This document shows, piece by piece, positions 1,701 through 13,440 of a stretch of DNA of 61,979 nucleotides. Source of the stretch: Azorhizobium doebereinerae UFLA1-100. GTDB lineage: Bacteria > Pseudomonadota > Alphaproteobacteria > Rhizobiales > Xanthobacteraceae. The stretch lies in NCBI RefSeq assembly GCF_000473085.1, contig NZ_AXBA01000004.1, positions 1 through 61,979 on the forward strand, read 5' to 3'. The position numbers and the translations under genes were made by a program. The number at the start of each line of letters is the position of its first letter. Position 1 is the first letter of the stretch. The notes below the pieces were generated by a model. That model was given only the letters and a program-made list of their open reading frames with translations. It did no database searches and had not been told where the DNA came from.

Positions 1701-3755
1701 ATGATGTCGTTCGGGTCCCGCGCCGCCGCCGCCCACCCCTCCGCCGGGGCGGCCAGCCCCCGGCTTGCCATGGGTCCCGACCTTGCCGCTCCCGGCGCCG
1801 CCGCCACCGAGCCGGTCCGCATCATCGAGACCGGGGAGGCGCTGTCCGGCCTCGACGAGGCCGCGTTCCGCTTCGCCGGGCGGCCCGCCGCCCTCGCCCT
1901 CGCCTATGTCTCGCCCCACGTCTCCTTCGAGGCGGTGGTCTCGCGCCTCCAGCGCATGGCCGGCCCGACCCGGGTCGTGGCCGTCTCCACCGCCGGCGAG
2001 TTGAGCAATGCCGGGCGCGGTCCGCTCTACAAGGCCGCCGACGGGCGCTGGACCAATGTGGTGGTGCAGATCTTCGCGCCGGACCTGATCGAGACCGTCC
2101 ACGTGGCCACCGTGCCGCTGCATTGCGAGGACATCCGCTCCGGCACCGTGCGCCTCGGCCGCGATGCCCGCGTGGAGAAGATCGTGGCCTCGCTGCGCGA
2201 GGTTTCCGTGCCGTTTCCGCTGCGGGCGGAAGACAGCTTCGCCCTGACCCTGATCGACGGCCTGTCCAATTCCGAGAACTATTTCATGGAGGCGGTGTAC
2301 CGCTCCGGGAAGTTCCCGTGCCTGTTCGTGGGCGGCTCGGCGGGCGGCAAGCTCGATTTCCAGGAGACGCAGCTGTTCGACGGCCGCAGCGTGGTGAAGA
2401 ACCACGCCGTAGTGGCGTTCGTGAAGCTGGCGCCGGGCAAGCGCTACAGCGTGCTGAAAAGCCAGAACTTCCGCCGCAAGGAACAGTCGTTCGCGGTGCT
2501 CGACGCCGACATCAACACCCGCAAGGTGCGCGCCGTGCTGGACCGCGCCACCGGCGCCCCGGTGTCGTTCGTCGATGCCCTGTGCGCGGCGCTGCGCACC
2601 ACGCCGGCCGGGCTGGAGAAGGCGCTGGCCGGGCAGACCTTCGGCATCAGCCTCGACGGCGAGCTGTTCGTGCGCTCGGTCGCCGGCTTCGACCTGGAGA
2701 AGGGCTCGGCCGCCTTCTATTGCGACGTCAGCCCCGGCGACGAACTGTTCCTGCTGGAGAGCGTGGATTTCGCCGAGCAGACCCGGCGCGACGTGCAGGC
2801 CTTCCTGCGCGGCAAGCCCAAGCCGCTCACCGCCATCCTCAACGACTGCATCCTGCGGCGCCTGCTGAACGGCCCGGTGCTGGGCAAGACCGACGATGTC
2901 TGGAACATTCCGGTGGCCGGCTTCTCCACCTTCGGCGAATTGATGGGCATCAACATCAACCAGACGCTCTCCGCCATCGTCTTCTTCGATGCCGCGGACG
3001 GGCCGTTCCAGGATGAGTTCATCGACAATTTCGCCATCCACTACGCCAACTTCGCCAATTATTTCACCCGCTGCCGGTTGAACAACGCGCGCGTGCTCAA
3101 CACCATGCGCTCGCAGGTGATCGACCAGCTCTCGCAGGCGCTGAACTTCGTCTCCAAGGTGGGCGACATGCTGGAGGACATCTCCGGCGTGGGCGAGGTG
3201 ATGGCCGGCATCCGCGACGTGGTCTCCGCCGGCGCCGGCGGGGGCGGCGGTGCGCAATCCAGCAATGCGGACCGGCTGGCGCACGAGTTCGCCAGCGTGA
3301 ACGATGCGCTCGGCTCGGTGCGCAAGGTGCTGTCGGTGATCGACAGCATCACCGGCCAGACCAACCTGCTGGCGCTCAACGCCACCATCGAGGCCGCCCG
3401 CGCCGGCGAGGCGGGCCGCGGCTTCGCCGTGGTGGCGGGGGAGGTCAAGAAGCTGGCGGGCGATACCAAGACCACGCTGGGCCAGACCCAGGCGGCGATC
3501 GGCGGCATCGAGGGCTCGCTGCGCCGGCTCGGCGGGATCATCGATCTCACCCGCGACGAGTTCTCGGCCGAAGGCCTGCGCTACAAGAGCGTGATCGACC
3601 AGGTGGAAGCCATCTTCGACCAGTCCGCCCATGTGCAGGAGGCGCTGGGCAATCTCCAGCGCGTGGTGCACGAGCAGCACAGCGCCTCGGCGGACATGAC
3701 GCGCCACCTGAACTTCCTGCGCGCCCTGGAAGAGCAGAAGACCAGCGCCGCCTGA
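1701..3755 (+). CDS. Cytoplasmic FIST-domain methyl-accepting chemotaxis protein
   Basis: This 684-residue protein has no signal peptide and no membrane segment. A FIST N domain (about 60-265, with [15 protein letters not shown] and LFVGGSAGG) and a FIST C domain (about 270-440) form the sensor. A chemoreceptor signalling hairpin follows, with its tip near 550-585 ([35 protein letters not shown]). It should sit in cytoplasmic receptor arrays and signal through CheW/CheA. FIST domains bind small ligands, and some members (NosP) bind haem and nitric oxide; the ligand here is unknown. The signalling part is short, so methylation helices may be reduced. The start at 1701 follows an AGAGG site; the second ATG at 1704 is equally possible. 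No chemotaxis genes adjoin it. Confidence 0.85.
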
Positions 3756-3765
3756 GCGGCGGCGC

Positions 3766-4401
3766 CTACCAGGCCAGCAGCCGGCGGCCGAGCAGGGCGC
3801 CGGCGAGGGTGACGGCGCCGATGGCGAGCCCGTACCAGGCCAGCACGAACAGCGGCGAATCGTCGGTGCAGTGGAGCGCGTAGCACGCCGCCCCGAGCCC
3901 GCCCGCCAGCAGGCCGGCGGCGGCCCCCGCCCAGGCCGGATGGCCCGGCGCGCCGCGCCGCAGCGCCAGCAGCACGGCGCCGAGCACCGGGGCCGCCATC
4001 AGCGGGATCAGCAGCACGCAATAGACCGCATACTGGCCGACCAGCCCCGGCATCCAGCTCCGTTCCGGGGTGCGCGCCAGCTCGGTGCCCACCCCGATGG
4101 CCAGCACCAGCAGCGGAACGAGCAGCAGCCGGGCCGCCGGACGCGCCGCAGCGCCCGGCCGCGACAGCCGCAGGGCGAGGGCGGCGGCGGCGCCCGCCAG
4201 CGACAGGGTGACGGCGAATTTCAGCAGGATGCGCGGGTCCAGCAGCAGCGCGGCGAAATTGGCCCGCACCGCCAGCGTCGCCGCGAACAGCAGCGCCGTC
4301 CCGGCGAGGCCGGCGCAAAGCGCCAGCGCGAGGCCGGAGCCGAGCCCCGGCCCGGTGCGCGTGTCGGCGGCAAGGCCGCGCAGGAGATCTTCGGTCTTCA
4401 C
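3766..4401 (-). CDS. nrsF: NrsF-family (DUF1109) membrane anti-sigma factor
   Basis: This 211-residue inner-membrane protein has about six hydrophobic segments starting near residue 23. It belongs to the DUF1109/NrsF family, which holds the cognate ECF sigma factor SigF at the membrane until a metal or redox signal arrives. Cys128 and Cys178 are 50 residues apart, the spacing I recall for the two cysteines (131 and 181) implicated in signal sensing in the Caulobacter protein; the local motif is ACYALHCTDDSP. It lies 15 bp downstream of sigF and is certainly cotranscribed. The bufferin operon diverging beyond sigF is its expected regulatory output. Confidence 0.85.
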   Translation of the reverse strand: MKTEDLLRGLAADTRTGPGLGSGLALALCAGLAGTALLFAATLAVRANFAALLLDPRILLKFAVTLSLAGAAAALALRLSRPGAAARPAARLLLVPLLVLAIGVGTELARTPERSWMPGLVGQYAVYCVLLIPLMAAPVLGAVLLALRRGAPGHPAWAGAAAGLLAGGLGAACYALHCTDDSPLFVLAWYGLAIGAVTLAGALLGRRLLAW

Positions 4402-4416
4402 GGTGCAGCTTCCATC

Positions 4417-4965
4417 TCAATCGTCCGCCCGCAGGCGCGCGGCGAGGCCGGCGAAGGCCCGGTGCAGGGCCACGCGCACGGCGCCCGCGGTCATGCCCAT
4501 GTGGCGGGCGGTGTCGCCGATGGAGGCGCCGTCCACCGCCACCGCCTTCAGGACGGCCCGCTGCTTTTCCGGCAGCAGGGCGAGGTGGCGCTCCACGTCG
4601 GCGGCGTCCGCGCCGGGGCGCTCCTCGGGGGCGGACAGGGTCTCGGCGAAATCCTCGATCGGCACCTCGACCCGGCGGCCGCGCCGGCGCAGGTGGTCCA
4701 CCAGCTTGTTGCGGGCGATGGTCCACAGCCAGGGGCCGAGCGGGTCGGTGGTGCGCCAGGTCTGGCGCTTGAGGTGGACCGCCAGCAGCGTGTCCTGCAC
4801 CACGTCCTCGGCGTCGTGCGTGGCCATGCCGAAGCTGGCGAAGCGCCGGCGCACCACGACGCGGACCGCCGGGGCGATCTCGCGCAGCAACTGCTCATAG
4901 GCCGAGCGGTCTCCCGCATGCGCCGCCAGCATCATCTGCGTCCACCGCCTTTCGCGTTCGTCCAT
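4417..4965 (-). CDS. sigF: ECF sigma factor, SigF type
   Basis: This 182-residue sigma-70 family protein has only regions 2 and 4. Region 2 includes HDAEDVVQDTLLAVHLK and WLWTIARNKLVDHLRR. Region 4 is near 125-175, with LPEKQRAVLKAVAVDGAS and a recognition helix MTAGAVRVALHRA. It pairs with the downstream NrsF anti-sigma as in Caulobacter, where SigF answers heavy-metal stress. An ECF-type promoter (-35 TGTAACG, -10 CGTA) lies about 20 bp upstream on the same strand, which implies positive autoregulation. A matching promoter faces the bufferin operon. The transcript start must lie very close to the ATG, so the leader is short. Confidence 0.88.
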   Translation of the reverse strand: MDERERRWTQMMLAAHAGDRSAYEQLLREIAPAVRVVVRRRFASFGMATHDAEDVVQDTLLAVHLKRQTWRTTDPLGPWLWTIARNKLVDHLRRRGRRVEVPIEDFAETLSAPEERPGADAADVERHLALLPEKQRAVLKAVAVDGASIGDTARHMGMTAGAVRVALHRAFAGLAARLRADD

Positions 4966-4986
4966 CGACAGGTTCCCGAAGGTCAG

Positions 4987-5013
4987 TACGCGCGGCGGGC
5001 GGCGGACGTTACA
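4987..5013 (-). promoter_or_regulatory. Predicted SigF-type promoter for sigF-nrsF
   Basis: On the minus strand TGTAACG (5013-5007) is followed after exactly 16 nt by CGTA (4990-4987). This is the ECF pattern and the mirror image of the promoter facing bufA. It implies that sigF is autoregulated. Confidence 0.6.
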
Positions 5014-5068
5014 GGCGGCGGCGGGACGCTGCCGGAAAAATTCTTCCGCATCTTTCTTTGCCCGCCGC

Positions 5069-5095
5069 TGTAACGCAATGGCCGGGGCCTCCGAA
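5069..5095 (+). promoter_or_regulatory. Predicted SigF-type promoter for the bufferin operon
   Basis: TGTAACG (5069-5075) is followed after exactly 16 nt by CGAA (5092-5095), about 70 bp upstream of bufA. Caulobacter SigF promoters as I recall them have a GTAAC -35 and CGAA -10 with the same spacing. The -35 heptamer is identical to that of the divergent sigF promoter. Confidence 0.7.
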
Positions 5096-5166
5096 GAAGG
5101 GAATGGCGCACCGCATCGGCACGACGGCCGGTCCGGCGCAGCGCCCGACTTTCACGGAGACCTCCC

Positions 5167-5451
5167 ATGACGACCAAGACGCGCATCGCGGCCACCGCTC
5201 TCGCCGGTTCCTTCGCCACCGCACTGAGCCTCGCCAGCGCCTATGCCGGCCCGGTCGCGCCGCAGCCGACCATGGACAAGTGCTACGGCATCTCGATGGC
5301 CGGCAAGAACGACTGCGCGGCGGGCGCCGGCACCTCCTGCGCCGGCACCTCCAAGGTGAATTACGACGCCAAGGCCTGGAAGTACGTGGCCAAGGGCACC
5401 TGCGACACCATCAAGACCCCGAACGGCATGGGCCACCTCAACCCCATGTGA
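5167..5451 (+). CDS. bufA: BufA-type bufferin precursor (DUF2282), secreted metal-binding RiPP
   Basis: This 94-residue preprotein has a signal peptide of about 27 residues ending SAYA. The mature part holds four cysteines (39, 50, 58, 79) in the bufferin pattern: DKCYGISMAGKNDC, GTSCAGTSKV, KGTCDTIKTPNG. Bufferins are ribosomally made, modified metallophores of Gram-negative bacteria. Family knowledge says a DUF692 (MNIO) enzyme with its DUF2063 partner converts the central cysteines to thiooxazoles, and that the exported product binds copper in the periplasm. Both partner genes follow directly. The ATG has a GGAG site at 5156-5159. Chain length and cysteine spacing look normal, so the gene is likely functional. 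Confidence 0.88.
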   Translation: MTTKTRIAATALAGSFATALSLASAYAGPVAPQPTMDKCYGISMAGKNDCAAGAGTSCAGTSKVNYDAKAWKYVAKGTCDTIKTPNGMGHLNPM

Positions 5452-5481
5452 CCGGCGGATGTGAACCGCCCGCGTGAAGCC

Positions 5482-5505
5482 GGGGGCGCCGGCGACGGCG
5501 CCCCC
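5482..5505 (+). terminator. GC-rich hairpin between bufA and bufB (probable partial attenuator)
   Basis: GGGGGCGCC (5482-5490) and GGCGCCCCC (5497-5505) form a perfect 9-bp stem with a 6-nt loop. There is no proper T tract. Between a small precursor gene and its enzyme gene, such a hairpin would reduce or process the downstream message and keep the precursor in excess. Confidence 0.5.
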
Positions 5506-5525
5506 TCCCGTTCGAGGAGAGGGTC

Positions 5526-6377
5526 ATGACCCAGCAACTTCCCTGTGGCGCCGGCGTCGGCTTCAAGCCGGAGCATTTCGCCGCCATCGCCGCCGACGCG
5601 CCGCCGCTGGCCTTTTTCGAGGTGCATGCGGAGAATTTCATGGGCGAGGGCGGCCGGCCCCATGCCCAGCTCGCGCGCCTGCGCGAGACCTATGCGCTGT
5701 CGATCCACGGCGTCGGCCTGTCCATCGGCGGGGAGGGGCCGCTGGACAGAGCCCATCTCGCCCGCCTGAAGGTGCTGATCGACCGCTACGCGCCGGAGAG
5801 CTTCTCCGAGCACCTGGCCTGGTCCTCGCACGGCGGGGCCTTCTTCAACGATTTGCTGCCGCTGCCCTACACGCCCGCGACCCTGGCCCGCGTCGCGGAC
5901 CATATCGGCGAGGTGCAGGATCGGCTCGGCCGCCGCATGCTGCTGGAGAATCCATCGACCTACGTGCGCTTCGAGGAGAGCAGCATCGGCGAGGTGGAGT
6001 TCCTGCGCGAGCTGGTGCGCCGCACCGGCTGCGGCCTGCTGCTGGACGTGAACAACGTCTTCGTCTGCGCCACCAATCACGGCACCGACGCGCGCGCCTA
6101 TCTCGCCGACTTCCCGTTCGAGGCGGTGGGCGAGATCCATCTCGGCGGCCATGACGCCGACGTGGACGACGCCGGCGCCCCGCTGCTGATCGATGCCCAC
6201 GGCAGCCCGGTGGCCGATCCGGTGTGGACCCTGTTCGGCGAGGTGATCGCCCGCGCCGGCCCCCGGCCGAGCCTGATCGAATGGGACAATGACGTGCCGG
6301 ACTGGCCGGTGCTGCGGGCCGAGGCGGAGCGGGCTGCGGCCATCCTGGCGCGCGCCGGCGCGGCGCGGGCGGCCTGA
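5526..6377 (+). CDS. bufB: BufB: DUF692 multinuclear iron enzyme (MNIO) modifying BufA
   Basis: This 283-residue TIM-barrel enzyme is of the DUF692/MNIO family. Conserved metal-ligand motifs appear in order: [62 protein letters not shown] and LIEWDNDVP. These supply the His, Glu, Asp and Asn ligands of a two- or three-iron centre that oxidises peptide cysteines. By context its substrate is the BufA precursor just upstream. The GAGGAGAGGG stretch just before the ATG gives a strong ribosome site. It sits 3 bp before bufC, so the two are probably translationally coupled and act as a complex. Confidence 0.9.
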
Positions 6378-6380
6378 GCC

Positions 6381-7139
6381 ATGGCCACCCTCTCCGGCTT
6401 CGCGGCCGCTTTGACCGCCACCGACCTTCAGCCGCCGCCGGGTCTCGCCGGGCCGGCCGGGCGGCGGTTCGCGGTCTATCGCAACAATGTGGCGGTCGGG
6501 CTGATCGGCGCGCTGGAGGCCCGCTTCCCGGCGGTGCGCGCCCTGGTGGGGGAGGAGTTCTTCCGGGCCATGGCGCGGGATTTCACCCTTAGCCACCCGC
6601 CGGCCTCGCCGGTGCTGATGGTCTATGGCGATGCCCTTCCGGACTTCATCGCGGCCTTTCCGCCGGCCGCGGACCTGCCCTATCTGGCGGATGTGGCCCG
6701 CATCGAGGCCGCCCGCACCCGCGCCTATCACGCGGCCGACGCGCCGCGCCTCGGCCCGGCGGCGTTCGCCGGCATCGACCCCACGGCCGTGGCGGGACTG
6801 CGGCTCGACCTCAACCCGGCGGTGGAACTGGTCGCGGCGGCGCATCCCGCCTGCACCATCTTCCGCATGGCCCTGGGGCTGGAGCCGGCGGGACCCATCG
6901 ACCCCTGGCTGCCGCAGCACACGCTGGTGGACCGGCCGGCCCATGACGTGACCGTGCGGCTTCTGCCGCCAGGAGCCCATGCCTTCCTCGCCGCCCTGGG
7001 GGCGGGCGCGCCGCTGGGCGCCGCCGCCGCCGGCGCGGCCGACCCCCGCTTCGATCCCGCCGCCGCTTTGGCCGAGCTGATCGGCAGCGGCCTTGCCTGC
7101 CGCATCCATCTTCCGGAGACGCACGATGATGACGCTTGA
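6381..7139 (+). CDS. bufC: BufC: DUF2063 precursor-recognition partner of BufB
   Basis: This 252-residue protein has an N-terminal DUF2063 domain with the usual signature FAVYRNNVAVGLIGALEARF followed by VGEEFF. The C-terminal half (LAYL-type segment YLADVARIEAARTRAYHAAD and beyond) is the winged, RRE-like part that in related MNIO systems binds the precursor and presents it to the enzyme. It lies 3 bp after bufB and overlaps the next gene by 14 bp, so bufA-bufB-bufC-doxX is one transcription unit. Alanine-rich and GC-rich like its neighbours, with no sign of decay. Confidence 0.88.
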   Translation: MATLSGFAAALTATDLQPPPGLAGPAGRRFAVYRNNVAVGLIGALEARFPAVRALVGEEFFRAMARDFTLSHPPASPVLMVYGDALPDFIAAFPPAADLPYLADVARIEAARTRAYHAADAPRLGPAAFAGIDPTAVAGLRLDLNPAVELVAAAHPACTIFRMALGLEPAGPIDPWLPQHTLVDRPAHDVTVRLLPPGAHAFLAALGAGAPLGAAAAGAADPRFDPAAALAELIGSGLACRIHLPETHDDDA

Positions 7140-7614
7140 GAGTGCGACCGCCTCCCGCCGCGCCGGCCTGGTCCCGGCCGTGGAGCGGGTCCGCGCGGCG
7201 CTCGATGCCATTCCCCTGTCGCTGGTCACGCTCTGCGCGCGGGTATTCCCGGCGGCGGTGTTCTGGCAGTCGGGCGAGACCAAGGTGGAGGGCTGGCGGG
7301 TGACCGAGGGCGCGGTGGCGCTGTTCCAGGAGGAATACCGCCTGCCGCTGGTGGACCCCTGGCTCGCGGCGCATCTCGCCGCCTTCGCCGAGCACGCCTT
7401 CCCGGTGCTGCTGGTACTGGGCCTCGCCACCCGGCTGTCGGCGCTCGCCCTGCTGGGCATGACGGCGGTGATCGAGGTCTTCGTCTATCCCGACGCCTGG
7501 CCGCTGCACGGGGTGTGGGCCACCTGCTTCCTGCTGCTGATCGCCCGCGGGCCGGGCGTGCTCTCGCTGGACGCGCTGATCGCCCGCCGGATGGCCCGGG
7601 GACGGCGCGCCTGA
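7126..7614 (+). CDS. DoxX-family inner-membrane protein of the bufferin operon
   Basis: This 162-residue protein has about four membrane segments (near 35-52, 82-102, 105-122, 128-145). It shows DoxX family features: ARVFPAAVFWQSGETKVEGW near the N terminus, then FPVLLVLGLATRLSALALLG. DoxX proteins often end bufferin operons; a redox or quinone-linked role is suspected, but none is firmly assigned. I chose the ATG at 7126, inside the end of bufC, because the overlap is typical for this operon and the longer reading has no ribosome site. Confidence 0.8.
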   Translation: MMTLESATASRRAGLVPAVERVRAALDAIPLSLVTLCARVFPAAVFWQSGETKVEGWRVTEGAVALFQEEYRLPLVDPWLAAHLAAFAEHAFPVLLVLGLATRLSALALLGMTAVIEVFVYPDAWPLHGVWATCFLLLIARGPGVLSLDALIARRMARGRRA

Positions 7615-8108: not shown

Positions 8109-9578
8109 ATGAAGATGGTGAAGAGCCTTCTGCTCGGTAGCGTCGCGGGTCTCGCCGCCGTCGCCGGCGCCCAGGCTGCCGACCTTCCCGTGAAGGCGAA
8201 GGCTGTGGAGTATGTGAAGGTGTGCTCCGCCTACGGCGCGGGCTACTATTACATCCCCGGCACGGACACCTGCCTGAAGATCGACGGCTACGCCCGCTTC
8301 GACACCTACGTGAACGCGGTTGGCACGTTCAACCCGAATATCTCCAGCGTTGCTGGCACGGCCTTCAACGGCGTCGGCGCCGGCGTCGGCGGCTATCCCT
8401 ATTCGGACGCTGACGACAACGACTACCTGACCCGCGCTCGCGCCGTCATGGGCATGGATGCCCGTACGCAGACCGATTACGGCACCCTGCGTTCGTACAT
8501 CCGCTTCGGCATGAACTGGGATTCCCAGACGGGTGGCAACGCTGGTTCGGGCATCGGCCTGTACTTCGAGCGCGCGTTCATCCAGTTCGCTGGCTTCACC
8601 TTCGGTTACACCCAGTCGTTCTTCGACACGGGCACCAGCTACGCGTACACCACGCTGTATGCCGGTTCGAACCAGTGGACCACCGCCCTGGCCTACACCG
8701 CCCAGTTCGGCAACGGCTTCTCGGCGACCCTCGCCCTCGAAGACGCCGTGAACCGCACCACCGGCGTTCAGGCGGCCTCCTCGGGTCTGTACGCCGCCGG
8801 CGGCACGGGCCTCGGCTACTCCAACTACCAGGCTGGCCAGCAGTTCCCCGACATCGTCGGCAACCTGCGCGTCGACCAGGCTTGGGGTTCGGTGCAGCTC
8901 TCCGCGGCTGGCCATCAGGTCCAGGCTCTGACCCCGGTCAGCTCGGCCACGGGCACGACCTTCCTCGGCCAGAACTCGTCCGACACCTGGGGCTGGGCCC
9001 TCGGTGGCGTGGTCGAGATCAAGCTCCCGATGATCTCGCCCGGCGACAGCCTGTACATCCAGGCCAACTATGCTGACGGCGCGCTCAGCTACCTCGGCCT
9101 GTCGGGCACCAGCCAGGGCCGCGCTTCTGGCCTCGGCTCGATCGACGCCAACACCACCCTGCTGACCTCGAGCGGCGCCTTCTATCCCATCGCCGACGCG
9201 GTGTGGAACGGCAGCTCGCTGTCCTACTCGACCGAGACCGGCTGGGCCGTTCAGGCTCAGTACCGTCACTTCTGGACCCCCGGCGTTCGCTCCGCGGTGT
9301 TCGGTGGTTACACCGAGGTCAACGTGCCCCAGAACACCGTCGGCGCTGTCGACGTGAACATCTGGCAGGTTGGCGTCAACACCATCTGGTCGCCGGTCAA
9401 GAACCTCGACCTCGGCGTCGAAGTGCTCTACTCGAAGGTTGACGGCGGCCTCGGCACGCTCGGCAACTACAACAACACGACTGGCGCGGCTTGCGGCACC
9501 GTCACCACCAACTGCTCCACGGTTGGCGGCTCCACCGACGTGTGGTCGGGCGGCATCCGCGCTCAGCGCAACTTCTGA
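8109..9578 (+). CDS. Outer-membrane porin, Omp2b/Porin_2 family
   Basis: This 489-residue preprotein has a clear signal peptide ending AGAQA before ADLPVKAK. The motif KVCSAYGAGYYYIPGTDTC, with its two cysteines, starts the mature barrel in rhizobial Porin_2 proteins. Further family motifs are TDYGTLRSYIRFG and FIQFAGFTFGYTQSFF, and the chain ends in a terminal aromatic (QRNF) for Bam recognition. It should be a 16-stranded general diffusion porin. The ATG at 8109 follows a strong TTTTGGAGG site. Codon use is notably regular, in line with high expression. An intrinsic terminator follows closely, and a shorter paralogue lies downstream. Confidence 0.92.
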   Translation: MKMVKSLLLGSVAGLAAVAGAQAADLPVKAKAVEYVKVCSAYGAGYYYIPGTDTCLKIDGYARFDTYVNAVGTFNPNISSVAGTAFNGVGAGVGGYPYSDADDNDYLTRARAVMGMDARTQTDYGTLRSYIRFGMNWDSQTGGNAGSGIGLYFERAFIQFAGFTFGYTQSFFDTGTSYAYTTLYAGSNQWTTALAYTAQFGNGFSATLALEDAVNRTTGVQAASSGLYAAGGTGLGYSNYQAGQQFPDIVGNLRVDQAWGSVQLSAAGHQVQALTPVSSATGTTFLGQNSSDTWGWALGGVVEIKLPMISPGDSLYIQANYADGALSYLGLSGTSQGRASGLGSIDANTTLLTSSGAFYPIADAVWNGSSLSYSTETGWAVQAQYRHFWTPGVRSAVFGGYTEVNVPQNTVGAVDVNIWQVGVNTIWSPVKNLDLGVEVLYSKVDGGLGTLGNYNNTTGAACGTVTTNCSTVGGSTDVWSGGIRAQRNF

Positions 9579-9879: not shown

Positions 9880-11190
9880 ATGACCGCATTTCGAACCGCT
9901 GGGTTGCCGCGCGCGCTGCTGGGCGCCGCCGTGGCTGTGGCCGGCCTGGGCATGGCTGCCGCCGGCCTCGGCATGGCCACCGGCGCCGCGCAGGCCGCGG
10001 ACCTGCCGGCCAAGGCCGTGGGCGTCAATTACGTGCGGCAATGCACCGCGGAGGGCGCCGGTTTCTATTATGTGCCGGGCACCGACACCTGCCTGCGCGT
10101 CGGCGGCTACCTGTATGCGGAAGGCTATTACAACACCTATTCCAACTATCCGCTCCAGAACAACAAGACCTATTCCGTCTCCACCGGCGGCCTCATCCTC
10201 GATGCGCGCACCGCCACCGATTACGGCACGCTGCGCTCCTATATCGAGATGCGGCTGCGCTGGCGCTCCTCCGATCCCTGGTCGGATGGCCCGAACCAGG
10301 CCGAGGCGGATTTCTACAAGGGCTTCATCCAGTTCGCCGGCTTCACCTTCGGCCACGCGGAATCCTTCTTCTCTTATTATGCCAACGCCAACGTGCTGGG
10401 CACCGACCCCGCCACCATCGGCGACGACACCAAAATCAACCTGATCGCCTACACCGCCGAATTCGCCAACGGCTTCAGCGCCACCCTGTCGCTGGAAGAC
10501 GCCAACCAGCGCACGTCGGGCGTGAACAGCTTCGACCCCGCGCTGCCTGACACGCTGGGCGATTACCAGGCCGGGGTGCAGGTGCCGGAATTCGTCGCCA
10601 ACATCCGCAATGACGGCAAGTGGGGCACGTTCCAGCTCTCCGGCGCGCTGCACCAGGTGCGCAGCCTCGACCTGAACGACCAGTTCGCCGCCACCGACAC
10701 CTGGGGCTACGCCCTCCAGGCCGGCATCATGTTCAACCTGCCCATGGTGGCCGAGGGCGATACCCTCTACCTCCAGACCGCTTATGCCAACGGCGCCACG
10801 TCCTATCTGGGCCTGCAGAATCCGTCGGGTGATTTCGCCGCGCCGGACGCCTATCTCACCGGCTCCGGCCTCTCCCTGGTGAGCGGCTGGAACGTCACCG
10901 GGCAGTATCTGCACAACTGGTCGGAGAAGTGGAACAGCGCCGTGTTCGCCGGCTATGCTGAGTGGGAGATCAACAATGCCGTCGCCCAGGCCGCCTATGG
11001 CGCCACCGGTGGGCGCAACGCCAATGTGGGCGCCAATCTGGTGTGGACCCCGGTGGCCAACCTGATCATCGGCGTGCAGTACGACTTCACCCGCTATTCG
11101 GCCAGCAACTATGTCCAGACCGACTACGGCCTGCCGATCCAGACCGTGAACGCCCATCGCGGCCTGCTCTATCTGGAACGCGACTTCTGA
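9880..11190 (+). CDS. Second outer-membrane porin, Omp2b/Porin_2 family
   Basis: This 436-residue paralogue of the preceding porin has an unusually long, repetitive signal region (VAGLGMAAAGLGMATGAAQA) before ADLPAKA. It keeps VRQCTAEGAGFYYVPGTDTC, TDYGTLRSYIEMR, FIQFAGFTFGHAESFF and a terminal YLERDF. It is about 50 residues shorter than its neighbour, mainly in loop regions, so the two may differ in permeability. The 300-bp gap and the intervening terminator indicate separate transcription. The start at 9880 has a GGGGGAG site about eight bases upstream. Confidence 0.9.
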   Translation: MTAFRTAGLPRALLGAAVAVAGLGMAAAGLGMATGAAQAADLPAKAVGVNYVRQCTAEGAGFYYVPGTDTCLRVGGYLYAEGYYNTYSNYPLQNNKTYSVSTGGLILDARTATDYGTLRSYIEMRLRWRSSDPWSDGPNQAEADFYKGFIQFAGFTFGHAESFFSYYANANVLGTDPATIGDDTKINLIAYTAEFANGFSATLSLEDANQRTSGVNSFDPALPDTLGDYQAGVQVPEFVANIRNDGKWGTFQLSGALHQVRSLDLNDQFAATDTWGYALQAGIMFNLPMVAEGDTLYLQTAYANGATSYLGLQNPSGDFAAPDAYLTGSGLSLVSGWNVTGQYLHNWSEKWNSAVFAGYAEWEINNAVAQAAYGATGGRNANVGANLVWTPVANLIIGVQYDFTRYSASNYVQTDYGLPIQTVNAHRGLLYLERDF

Positions 11191-11742
11191 GGGCGCGTCC
11201 CGTCCGGACATCTCCGCCCGCGCGCCGGGTGGAGGCGGCGCCCCGGCCGTAAGCGCCGCGCCGTGCGCGAGCGCTGTCCCGGCGCCCCGCGCAAGCGTCT
11301 TCCCACGCCACGCGCCAGCCGCGCCAGAGCGCTTCCGGCGCGGCGCAAGAGCCATGCCGGTATCGCGCGCAGGTTGACGGCGCGGCGATGCCTCCGCGCG
11401 GCCGGGGCGCCATGGCCTGTGGCTGCGGCGGGCGTGGGGCGGCGTTCCTGTCCCGCGCCATCGGCCGCCGCCTTGCCGGGCCGGAGCGCGATCCGATCGG
11501 TGAATCGCCCTCTCACTTGACGATGGAGCACGTGCCTCGACGCGCCGGCTGCGGTCCGGCCGCGCGGATGTGGTATCCGCAAATACACGGCATGGTAGGC
11601 ATGTATTGCGGCGATCACCTTAAGTAATGCGGTGGTAGCGCAATCCTGATGCAAGATAAGGCGCCTAAGGGATGATGCTCGTGTCCCGCCCCTCGCGCGC
11701 GTCACGCCTCGAGACCCCGCATTGCCCTGCTGGAGATGGCGT
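11191..11742. other. Gene-free stretch between porin and chemoreceptor
   Basis: These 552 bp contain no ORF with sensible coding character on either strand. The right half (from about 11560) is less GC-rich and probably holds the chemoreceptor promoter, but I could not identify -35/-10 boxes with confidence. No repeat or RNA gene was recognised. Confidence 0.4.
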
Positions 11743-13440
11743 ATGTCCTACAAGAATTGGCCTATGATCTGGAAAGTCGTCAGCCTGCTCATGGTGCTCG
11801 GCCTCACGAGCATCGGCGGCGCCTATTACGCGACGCTGAAGATGGCCGATCTCGACCGCATGTACACGCAGATCCTCGACGGGCCGGAAGTCACCCTGTC
11901 CATGCTCGCGCGCGCCAACCGCATGGCGACGGCGGCCAGCGTCGCGGTGTATCGCAACATCGCCGCCGTCACCCCGGCGGACAATGTCGCCGCCTCGCAG
12001 GCCCTGGCCACCGCGGTGCGGGAATATGACAGCAGCGCCGAGGAGGCGCGGGGCGCCACGCCGGCCTATGCCGACAAGGTGGCCGGGCTGATCAAGGATT
12101 TCCACCGGGCGGTGGAGACCACCTGCGCCGCCACCGTCAAGCTGGCCAGTGACGCGTCCGATCCCGAAGCCATGAGCCGGGCCAGCCAGTCCATGCTGAC
12201 CGTTTGTGAGCCGGCGATCAACGCCGTCATCAGCGCCGGCGCCACCCTCGGCAACACGGTCAAGGCGGAACTGAAGGTGCTGAACGATGCCGGCACCGAC
12301 GCCTCGGTCCGTGCCGGACACATGACGCTCGCGGCCATCGCCATCGCCACCCTGGCGGTCATCGGCGTCGCCGTGGTGCTGGTGCGCGGGGGCATCGTCG
12401 CCCCGCTGCGCGGCATGATGGGGGTGATGGAGGCCATGGGCCGCGGCGACCTCGGCCGCGCGGTCGAGGGCACCGAGCGCGCCGACGAGATCGGCGCCAT
12501 GTCGAACACGCTGGAGCTGCTGCGCGAGCAATTGGGCGAGGCCGAGGTCGCCCGCCAGCAGCAGGCGGCGCGCGAGGAGCAGGAGCGCCAGGTGCTCGCC
12601 CGGCGCTCGGCGCTCAGCGAGGCGTTCGTGGGCCGCATGCGCGACCTCGCCAGCGGCTTCGCCCAGTCCTCGGGCGAGGTGGCCGAATCGGCCCGCAACC
12701 TGTCCGAGACCGCCGACGAGACCTCCCGCCAGGCCCAGGCGGTGGCGTCCGCCGCCGAGGAGGCCGCCACCAACGTGCAGACGGTGGCCGCCTCGTCCGA
12801 GGAACTGGCGGCCTCGGTGCGCGAGATCACCGGCCAGGTCAGCCATTCCGCCGACGTGGCCGACATCGCCTTCAACGAGGCGGAAGCCTCCAATGCGCGG
12901 ATTGGCGACCTGTCGGCGGCCGCCGCCGCCATCGGCGACGTCATCAACCTGATCAAGGGCATCGCCGACCAGACCAACCTCTTGGCGCTCAATGCCACCA
13001 TCGAGGCGGCGCGCGCCGGCGAGATGGGCAAGGGCTTCGCCGTGGTGGCCGCCGAGGTGAAGCAGCTCGCCGACCAGACGGCCAAGGCCACGGCGGACAT
13101 TTCCAGCAAGGTCAACGAGATCCAGCAGGCCACCCACGGCACGGTCGCCTCCATGACCGAGATCGTGCGCGTGGTCAGCGACATCAAGCAGATCTCCTCG
13201 GCCATCGCCGGGGCGGTGGAGGAGCAGGGCGCGGCCACCGGCGAGATCGCGCAGAACTGCCAGCAAGCGGCCACCGGCACGCAGCAGGTGACGCAGAATA
13301 TCGGCGGCGTCGGCCGCGCCGCCGAGATGACCGGCGCGGCGTCCTCGCAACTGCTGACCCTGTCGCAGGGGCTGTCGGGCCAGGCCACCGACCTGCGCAA
13401 CGTGGTGGAGACCTTCGTGCGCGACCTCAACGCCGCCTGA
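11743..13440 (+). CDS. Membrane-bound methyl-accepting chemotaxis protein
   Basis: This 565-residue receptor has TM1 at about residues 8-29, a helical periplasmic domain (30-190), TM2 at about 195-217, a HAMP domain (218-270) and a long cytoplasmic signalling domain. The tip near 406-445 has [20 protein letters not shown] and [20 protein letters not shown], and [11 protein letters not shown] closes the chain. No C-terminal CheR-binding pentapeptide is seen. The sensor domain looks like a four-helix bundle, and its ligand cannot be read from sequence. I chose ATG 11743 because GGAG lies seven bases upstream. The gene is monocistronic, followed by a palindromic hairpin. Confidence 0.88.

Follow-up and report, generated by a model that had tools for sequence, protein, structure and literature searches.

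We describe a locus of Azorhizobium doebereinerae UFLA1-100 in which the genes for an extracytoplasmic function (ECF) sigma factor and its anti-sigma factor, sigF and nrsF, are divergent from a four-gene bufferin operon, bufABCD, and in which each of the two units is faced by a copy of the same promoter motif. The locus lies at 3766-7614 of the stretch that we analysed (61,979 nucleotides of contig NZ_AXBA01000004.1, the whole of which is called the window). We read it as an ECF16 (SigF-NrsF) regulated Buf1 bufferin unit, wired into the feedback circuit proposed below, and we put the probability of this reading at about 0.85. Its parts are the following.

3766..4401, minus strand: nrsF, GTG start, 211 amino acid anti-sigma factor (Pfam NrsF, 9.3e-52)
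4417..4965, minus strand: sigF, ATG at 4965..4963, ECF16-type sigma factor of 182 amino acids (Pfam Sigma70_r2, 6.2e-13, and Sigma70_r4_2, 2.4e-10; the NrsF gene is next to it)
4987..5013, minus strand: SigF-type promoter toward sigF, TGTAACG-N16-CGTA, 21 nucleotides from the -10 box to the ATG
5014..5068: spacer of 55 bp separating the two -35 boxes, as read from the sequence
5069..5095, plus strand: SigF-type promoter toward bufA, TGTAACG-N16-CGAA, 71 nucleotides from the -10 box to the ATG
5167..5451, plus strand: bufA, Buf1 bufferin precursor of 94 amino acids (Pfam DUF2282, 5e-24)
5526..6377, plus strand: bufB, MNIO (DUF692) maturase of 283 amino acids (Pfam MbnB_TglH_ChrH, 3e-105)
6381..7139, plus strand: bufC, DUF2063 partner protein of 252 amino acids (Pfam DUF2063, 1e-25)
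7126..7614, plus strand: bufD, DoxX-family membrane protein of 162 amino acids, its start overlapping the end of bufC (Pfam DoxX, 7.3e-17)

The promoter motifs are mirror images of each other across the spacer. The one facing sigF reads TGTAACGTCCGCCGCCCGCCGCGCGTA (4987-5013, minus strand) and the one facing bufA reads TGTAACGCAATGGCCGGGGCCTCCGAA (5069-5095, plus strand). An earlier sequence-only reading of this DNA had described the pair, and both motifs are where it placed them and point toward the genes it named; the 56 bp that it gave between the -35 boxes comes to 55 bp when counted (5014-5068). Within the window, TGTAACG-N14..18-CGWA matches twice, against a mean of 0.04 in shuffled sequence, and one of 100 shuffles reached two. 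Across the genome (5.81 Mb in 104 contigs) the form with a spacer of 15 to 17 matches three times, the third match having N15 and lying on another contig; the mirrored pair are the only N16 sites. The looser motif GTAACS-N16-CGWA has 8 matches in the genome and 20 in a backward control, and a lone match of this kind therefore means little. The significance of the pair rests on its position between two genes and on its conservation. The six other looser sites all overlap open frames, each longer than 200 codons, and at two of them (L005 and L006) a long frame begins 6 and 7 bases downstream. A wider SigF regulon in this genome is therefore neither shown nor excluded.

The bufA-facing promoter can equally be written TGTAAC-N17-CGAA and so agrees with the published ECF16 consensus, (T/C)GTAAC-N17-CGAA (PMC8315932; here and below, statements on published systems follow the available parts of the papers cited). 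The sigF-facing promoter is one base away from it, with CGTA for CGAA. An AT-rich activating element in the spacer was considered as well and rejected. At the window the AT fraction is 0.345 in the spacer and 0.304 in the leaders, which gives no clear element, and over 46 loci the spacer mean of 0.405 (0.379 in leaders; higher in 31) differs too little.

We examined the conservation of the arrangement in sigF-nrsF loci of genomes that share the order, family or class of the source genome and of genomes of named species. The sample is non-random: each genome search contributed at most 30 loci from longer match lists, and for the named loci we kept the best 80 among at least 162 confirmed relatives. 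Scanning of the 241 loci began at L012 and gave 215 sigF-nrsF pairs, of which 190 are unique, the window locus (L043) included; duplicates were defined by identity over 100 bases upstream and 300 bases of sigF. We call bufA divergent when it lies within 700 bp of sigF, and a site strict when it has the form GTAAC-N16/17-CG[AT]A. Controls were 20 copies of each region, resampled by a first-order Markov model.

In 59 of the 190 loci, the window locus among them, bufA is divergent. Both strict promoters are present in 47 of these, the sigF-facing one alone in 6, the bufA-facing one alone in 5, and neither in 1; no randomised region of this set carries both (0/1180). By this count, divergent sigF-bufA loci as a rule carry the mirrored promoters. 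Among the other 131 loci, 11 have both promoters, 94 the sigF-facing one only, 5 the opposite one only and 21 neither, with 0/2620 randomised regions having both. A strict site facing sigF within 450 bases upstream thus occurs in 158/190 loci, whatever gene stands opposite. The distance from GTAAC to GTAAC in the 47 two-promoter divergent loci ranges from 28 to 154 bases with a median of 65, and the 57 bases of the window are ordinary. Of three named Sinorhizobium loci, two (L144 and L145) have spacers and -10 boxes equal to those published for S. meliloti, and the third, from a metagenome-assembled genome (L158), has N17 on both sides. The compactness and mirror symmetry that the sequence-only reading singled out are thus not special to this genome: divergent bufA recurs in 59/190 loci, the spacing is usual, and published examples exist in S. 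meliloti and, for a different peptide, in Brucella. Its proposal that one sigma factor drives both units is well supported, by the conservation of the motifs (47/59) and by experiments in S. meliloti and Caulobacter (PMC6180224, PMC3511200).

The products of all six genes (ECF sigma factor, NrsF, DUF2282, MNIO, DUF2063 and DoxX proteins) exceed the curated Pfam cut-offs, and the full bufferin pathway proposed from sequence alone (precursor, MNIO enzyme, partner and DoxX protein) is borne out by four of them. At the finer level of NCBIfam models, BufB passes the bufferin maturase model MNIO_BufB (378.5 bits; cut-off 310) and SigF passes one equivalog model (249.3 bits; cut-off 198). BufB also matches the DUF692 structure PDB 3bww (1.3e-42) and is encoded by the sole MNIO gene found in the genome. 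NrsF matches the equivalog AntiSigF_NrsF over its full length but at 76.6 bits, under the cut-off of 300; it is a member of the Pfam NrsF family with no close match to that equivalog. BufC stays under the cut-off of the HvfC model (35.2 of 142 bits), BufD under that of the HvfX-family model (48.4 of 80 bits), and BufA matched no NCBIfam model. A sequence search of BufC against solved structures returned nothing at E 0.01. An ECF16 or SigF-NrsF pair is defined by a two-domain ECF sigma factor gene beside a gene for an NrsF/DUF1109 membrane anti-sigma factor, and the locus has both, sigF lying 15 nucleotides upstream of nrsF on the same strand; the number 16 here does not come from a classifier. 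The Buf1 assignment follows from a DUF2282 precursor with four conserved cysteines, together with MNIO, DUF2063 and DoxX genes.

In an alignment of 58 precursors, that of the window among them (one of the 59 translations was excluded for its length), those cysteines of BufA (Cys 39, 50, 58 and 79) are kept in 58, 58, 58 and 57 sequences, and the N-terminus of BufA looks by eye like a Sec signal peptide. The periplasm is given as the site of bufferin action (PMC12452194), and in our reading release of BufA from the cell is not indicated. In NrsF, C128 is aligned in 190/190 loci and C178 in 180/190 (window included). These two are probably the sensing cysteines. They should be equivalent to C131 and C181 of Caulobacter NrsF, to judge from an offset of three, the Caulobacter protein not being knowingly part of the alignment.

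Taken together with the relatives, these parts suggest the following circuit. NrsF in the membrane, with its two conserved cysteines, would hold SigF. The signal, either too much of a thiol-reactive metal (copper being the likeliest) or an oxidative insult of a related kind, would act on those cysteines from the periplasmic side, and SigF would be freed. SigF with RNA polymerase would then fire both mirrored promoters, leftward for sigF-nrsF and rightward for bufABCD. BufB and BufC would modify the central cysteines of BufA, to thiooxazole as expected for a Buf1 bufferin, and BufA would then be exported and trap copper in the periplasm. The response would be shut down as the leftward transcript renews NrsF and the bufferin removes the metal. 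Since NrsF would be renewed on SigF's own transcript and the bufferin would lower the signal, feedback of a damped, homeostatic kind seems the more likely. The genes, the motifs and their conservation come from the present analysis, promoter use, sigma release and copper induction come from relatives, and every dynamic step at this locus is inferred.

Several observations weigh against this reading or against parts of it. Twelve of the 59 divergent loci are without one or both strict promoters. Among them, L100 (the same locus as L036) keeps the divergent layout but has a strict GTAAC on neither side; inspected by eye, its -35 boxes are ATAAC and CTAAC at the correct spacing, and its NrsF is the nearest to that of the window among 19 relatives compared (69%, as L036). 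The CGTA that faces sigF in the window, against the published CGAA, could make self-activation weak or shared with another factor. Against a purely damped loop stand the 18.8-fold rise of Bradyrhizobium ecfF on deletion of the anti-sigma factor osrA and the raising of Caulobacter sigF by copper (table values 2.2 to 4.7 over four conditions; PMC8224329). As for the signal, S. meliloti fusions were reported as unresponsive to hydrogen peroxide (H2O2), cadmium and chromate (PMC6180224), the Brucella relative responds to hypochlorous acid (HOCl; PMC8315932) and the Bradyrhizobium relative to H2O2 and singlet oxygen. The inducer here is therefore not certainly a metal, and the S. meliloti result speaks against a general metal response.

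How far can these observations be carried toward other explanations? The motif pair could be a chance match in GC-rich DNA, as the looser motif, no more frequent than its backward control, might lead one to think; the position of the sites, the way they point, their distances from the two start codons and their conservation in 47/59 loci against 0/1180 randomised regions refute this as far as sequence allows, and we give it practically no weight. A truly self-reinforcing loop, bistable or amplifying, would require SigF to activate its own gene so strongly that the response locks on. The SigF-type site toward sigF is in keeping with such a loop, as are the rise of the S. meliloti RpoE7 operon under its own sigma factor (PMC6180224) and the increases just given for Bradyrhizobium and for Caulobacter in copper. 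With nrsF 15 nucleotides behind sigF, however, the inhibitor would be raised too; Caulobacter sigF is "not strongly auto-regulated" under chromium or cadmium (PMC3511200); and the -10 box toward sigF in the window deviates from CGAA. We consider a loop of this sort improbable. The sequence-only reading had called the unit self-reinforcing, which is unproven and overstated given that nrsF is co-encoded with sigF, that strong autoregulation was not seen in Caulobacter under chromium or cadmium and that the bufferin should take away the inducing metal, yet copper does raise sigF and nrsF there (PMC8224329); the rest of its regulatory account is largely right.

The opposite possibility is that some other regulator or sigma factor is the main user of the sigF-facing site, SigF controlling bufABCD only. 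Caulobacter sigF does depend on SigF plus a second regulator, unidentified in that report, both acting within -37 to +37 (PMC3511200), and CGTA toward sigF is common (22/47 two-promoter loci). Against this stand the strict site toward sigF in 158/190 loci, regardless of the opposite gene, and the response of the Caulobacter sigF promoter and of S. meliloti ecfR7 to overexpression of the sigma factor (PMC3511200, PMC6180224); we hold this explanation to be quite improbable. Finally, the unit might answer mainly to oxidants such as HOCl or peroxide and not to copper. The Brucella (PMC8315932) and the Bradyrhizobium relatives do respond to oxidants, the latter via the same anti-sigma cysteines, and resistance to oxidative stress in stationary phase is impaired in a Caulobacter sigF mutant (PMC8224329). 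The available accounts of the Brucella and Bradyrhizobium units, however, name no bufferin operon as output, while the present unit yields a Buf1 bufferin, which traps copper, and SigF-dependent genes of Caulobacter are reported as uninduced by agents that generate reactive oxygen (PMC3511200). An oxidant as the main signal therefore seems unlikely to us, and we retain the copper-responsive, damped SigF-bufferin circuit as the preferred reading.

Are the two promoters equal? The sigF-facing -10 box varies more than the bufA-facing one. In the 47 two-promoter divergent loci the third bases (sigF/bufA) are A/A in 23, T/A in 13, T/T in 9 and A/T in 2, the window being one of the 22 with CGTA toward sigF; overall, CGTA faces sigF in 48/190 loci. 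The 59 loci with divergent bufA divide into 26 with CGTA, 27 with CGAA and 6 with no call, and the 131 others into 22 with CGTA, 84 with CGAA and 25 with another tetramer or no call. A sign test by hand on 13 versus 2 gives a p-value of about 0.007, for loci that are not independent. In a SigF tree built by a quick method, which leaves 17 of its 43 inner branches open, at least 12 changes are counted for the base toward sigF, compared with 5 for the base toward bufA. The closest relatives of the window in that tree (L104 and L224) are A/A, so the T facing sigF in the window is a local change. The bias of T/A over A/T shrinks once the loci are collapsed into SigF clusters weighted as one each: with clustering at 60%, 70% and 80% identity it is 2.5 to 1.3, 6.9 to 2.0 and 11.1 to 2.0, respectively. 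A sharp rule drawn from the first 45 sigF loci (14 with divergent bufA, of these 10 CGTA, 2 CGAA and 2 without a call; the others nearly all CGAA) failed with 190 loci. Because the 190-locus and cluster-weighted counts weakened the first pattern, we offer the unequal -10 bases only as a modest lead. One may speculate that selection keeps the promoters unequal and that the third base sets the gain, CGAA giving strong bufferin output and CGTA weak sigF feedback; as it stands, we find this doubtful. If it were true, and if Caulobacter follows it, unequal gain would explain why sigF and CC3254 respond so differently despite similar-looking promoters. Whether the two promoters differ in strength bears on the actual amount of feedback in the copper response.

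The survey of loci brought up other arrangements of the unit. In 4 of the 190 loci (L109, L134, L165 and L177), bufABCD is not divergent: it shares a strand with sigF and precedes it, with sigF-nrsF behind the operon. Four of the 11 other mirrored loci (L014, L015, L137 and L191) have opposite sigF a short, methionine-rich peptide that looks exported by eye, like Brucella bcrX. Two loci from the same genus as the window (L051 and L057) encode NrsF proteins only 44% and 39% identical to that of the window, and several loci of other genera reach 58-69%. This pattern hints that the unit has moved horizontally or has paralogues. A plasmid search with NrsF matched nothing; the same search with BufB returned 352 plasmid records.

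Around the locus, a 684 amino acid protein (1701-3755, plus strand) combines a chemotaxis signalling domain with FIST N and FIST C sensor domains and is partially similar to the nitric-oxide sensor NosP, far under the NCBIfam cut-off for it. Its gene and nrsF run toward each other, their stops separated by 10 bases. Downstream of the bufferin operon are tandem Porin_2 family genes (8109-9578 and 9880-11190, plus strand) and a second chemotaxis receptor, with HAMP and MCP signalling domains (11722-13440, plus strand).

A close experimental precedent is found in S. meliloti, where the ECF16 factor RpoE7 raises SMb20530-20527, which include DUF692 and DUF2063 genes and are divergent from rpoE7-ecfR7 (log fold change 6.8 for SMb20530 and 3.5 for ecfR7; PMC6180224). 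Table 1 of that paper, with promoters mapped by rapid amplification of cDNA ends (5'-RACE) or earlier RNA-Seq, gives TGTAAC...CGAA for both divergent units. The two systems share the ECF16 sigma and anti-sigma pair, the divergent DUF692/DUF2063 operon and TGTAAC-N16/17-CGAA promoters, both raised by the sigma factor in S. meliloti. They differ in that both S. meliloti -10 boxes are CGAA, whereas the sigF-facing box of the window is CGTA. The first and last of the divergent genes are named there only as conserved hypothetical, and the available text reports no inducer (PMC6180224).

In Caulobacter, sigF-nrsF (CC3253-CC3252) and CC3254-CC3257 share with the window the sigma factor, NrsF with its cysteines, the DUF2282, DUF692 and DoxX genes, SigF-dependent promoters and, as known there, copper induction (PMC3511200, PMC8224329). 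The promoters of sigF and CC3254-3257 have been mapped and tested, and the regulon is held in check by NrsF and by its two cysteines, rising when these cysteines are changed (PMC3511200). Copper induces sigF, nrsF and CCNA_03363-03366, two of the values being significant only if no fold cut-off is applied; in copper, a sigF mutant shows poor growth (PMC8224329). The Caulobacter regulon differs in having an extra, second DUF692 cluster and a methionine-sulfoxide-reductase cluster, while the source genome has one MNIO gene.

Brucella melitensis bcrS-abcS and bcrXQP resemble the window in their ECF16 pair and their adjacent, mirrored TGTAAC...CGAA promoters on opposite strands; they differ in their output, a methionine-rich peptide operon induced by HOCl, for which the available text names no bufferin (PMC8315932). 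Buf1 bufferin clusters, for which sigma factor and NrsF genes have been reported, have the same core of precursor, MNIO, DUF2063 and DoxX genes, with no difference found at the level tested (PMC12452194). A divergent sigF/bufferin circuit with matching promoters is thus known from experiment in related bacteria. The present locus is a further example, and it adds one alphaproteobacterial genome to those with the ECF16-bufferin circuit.

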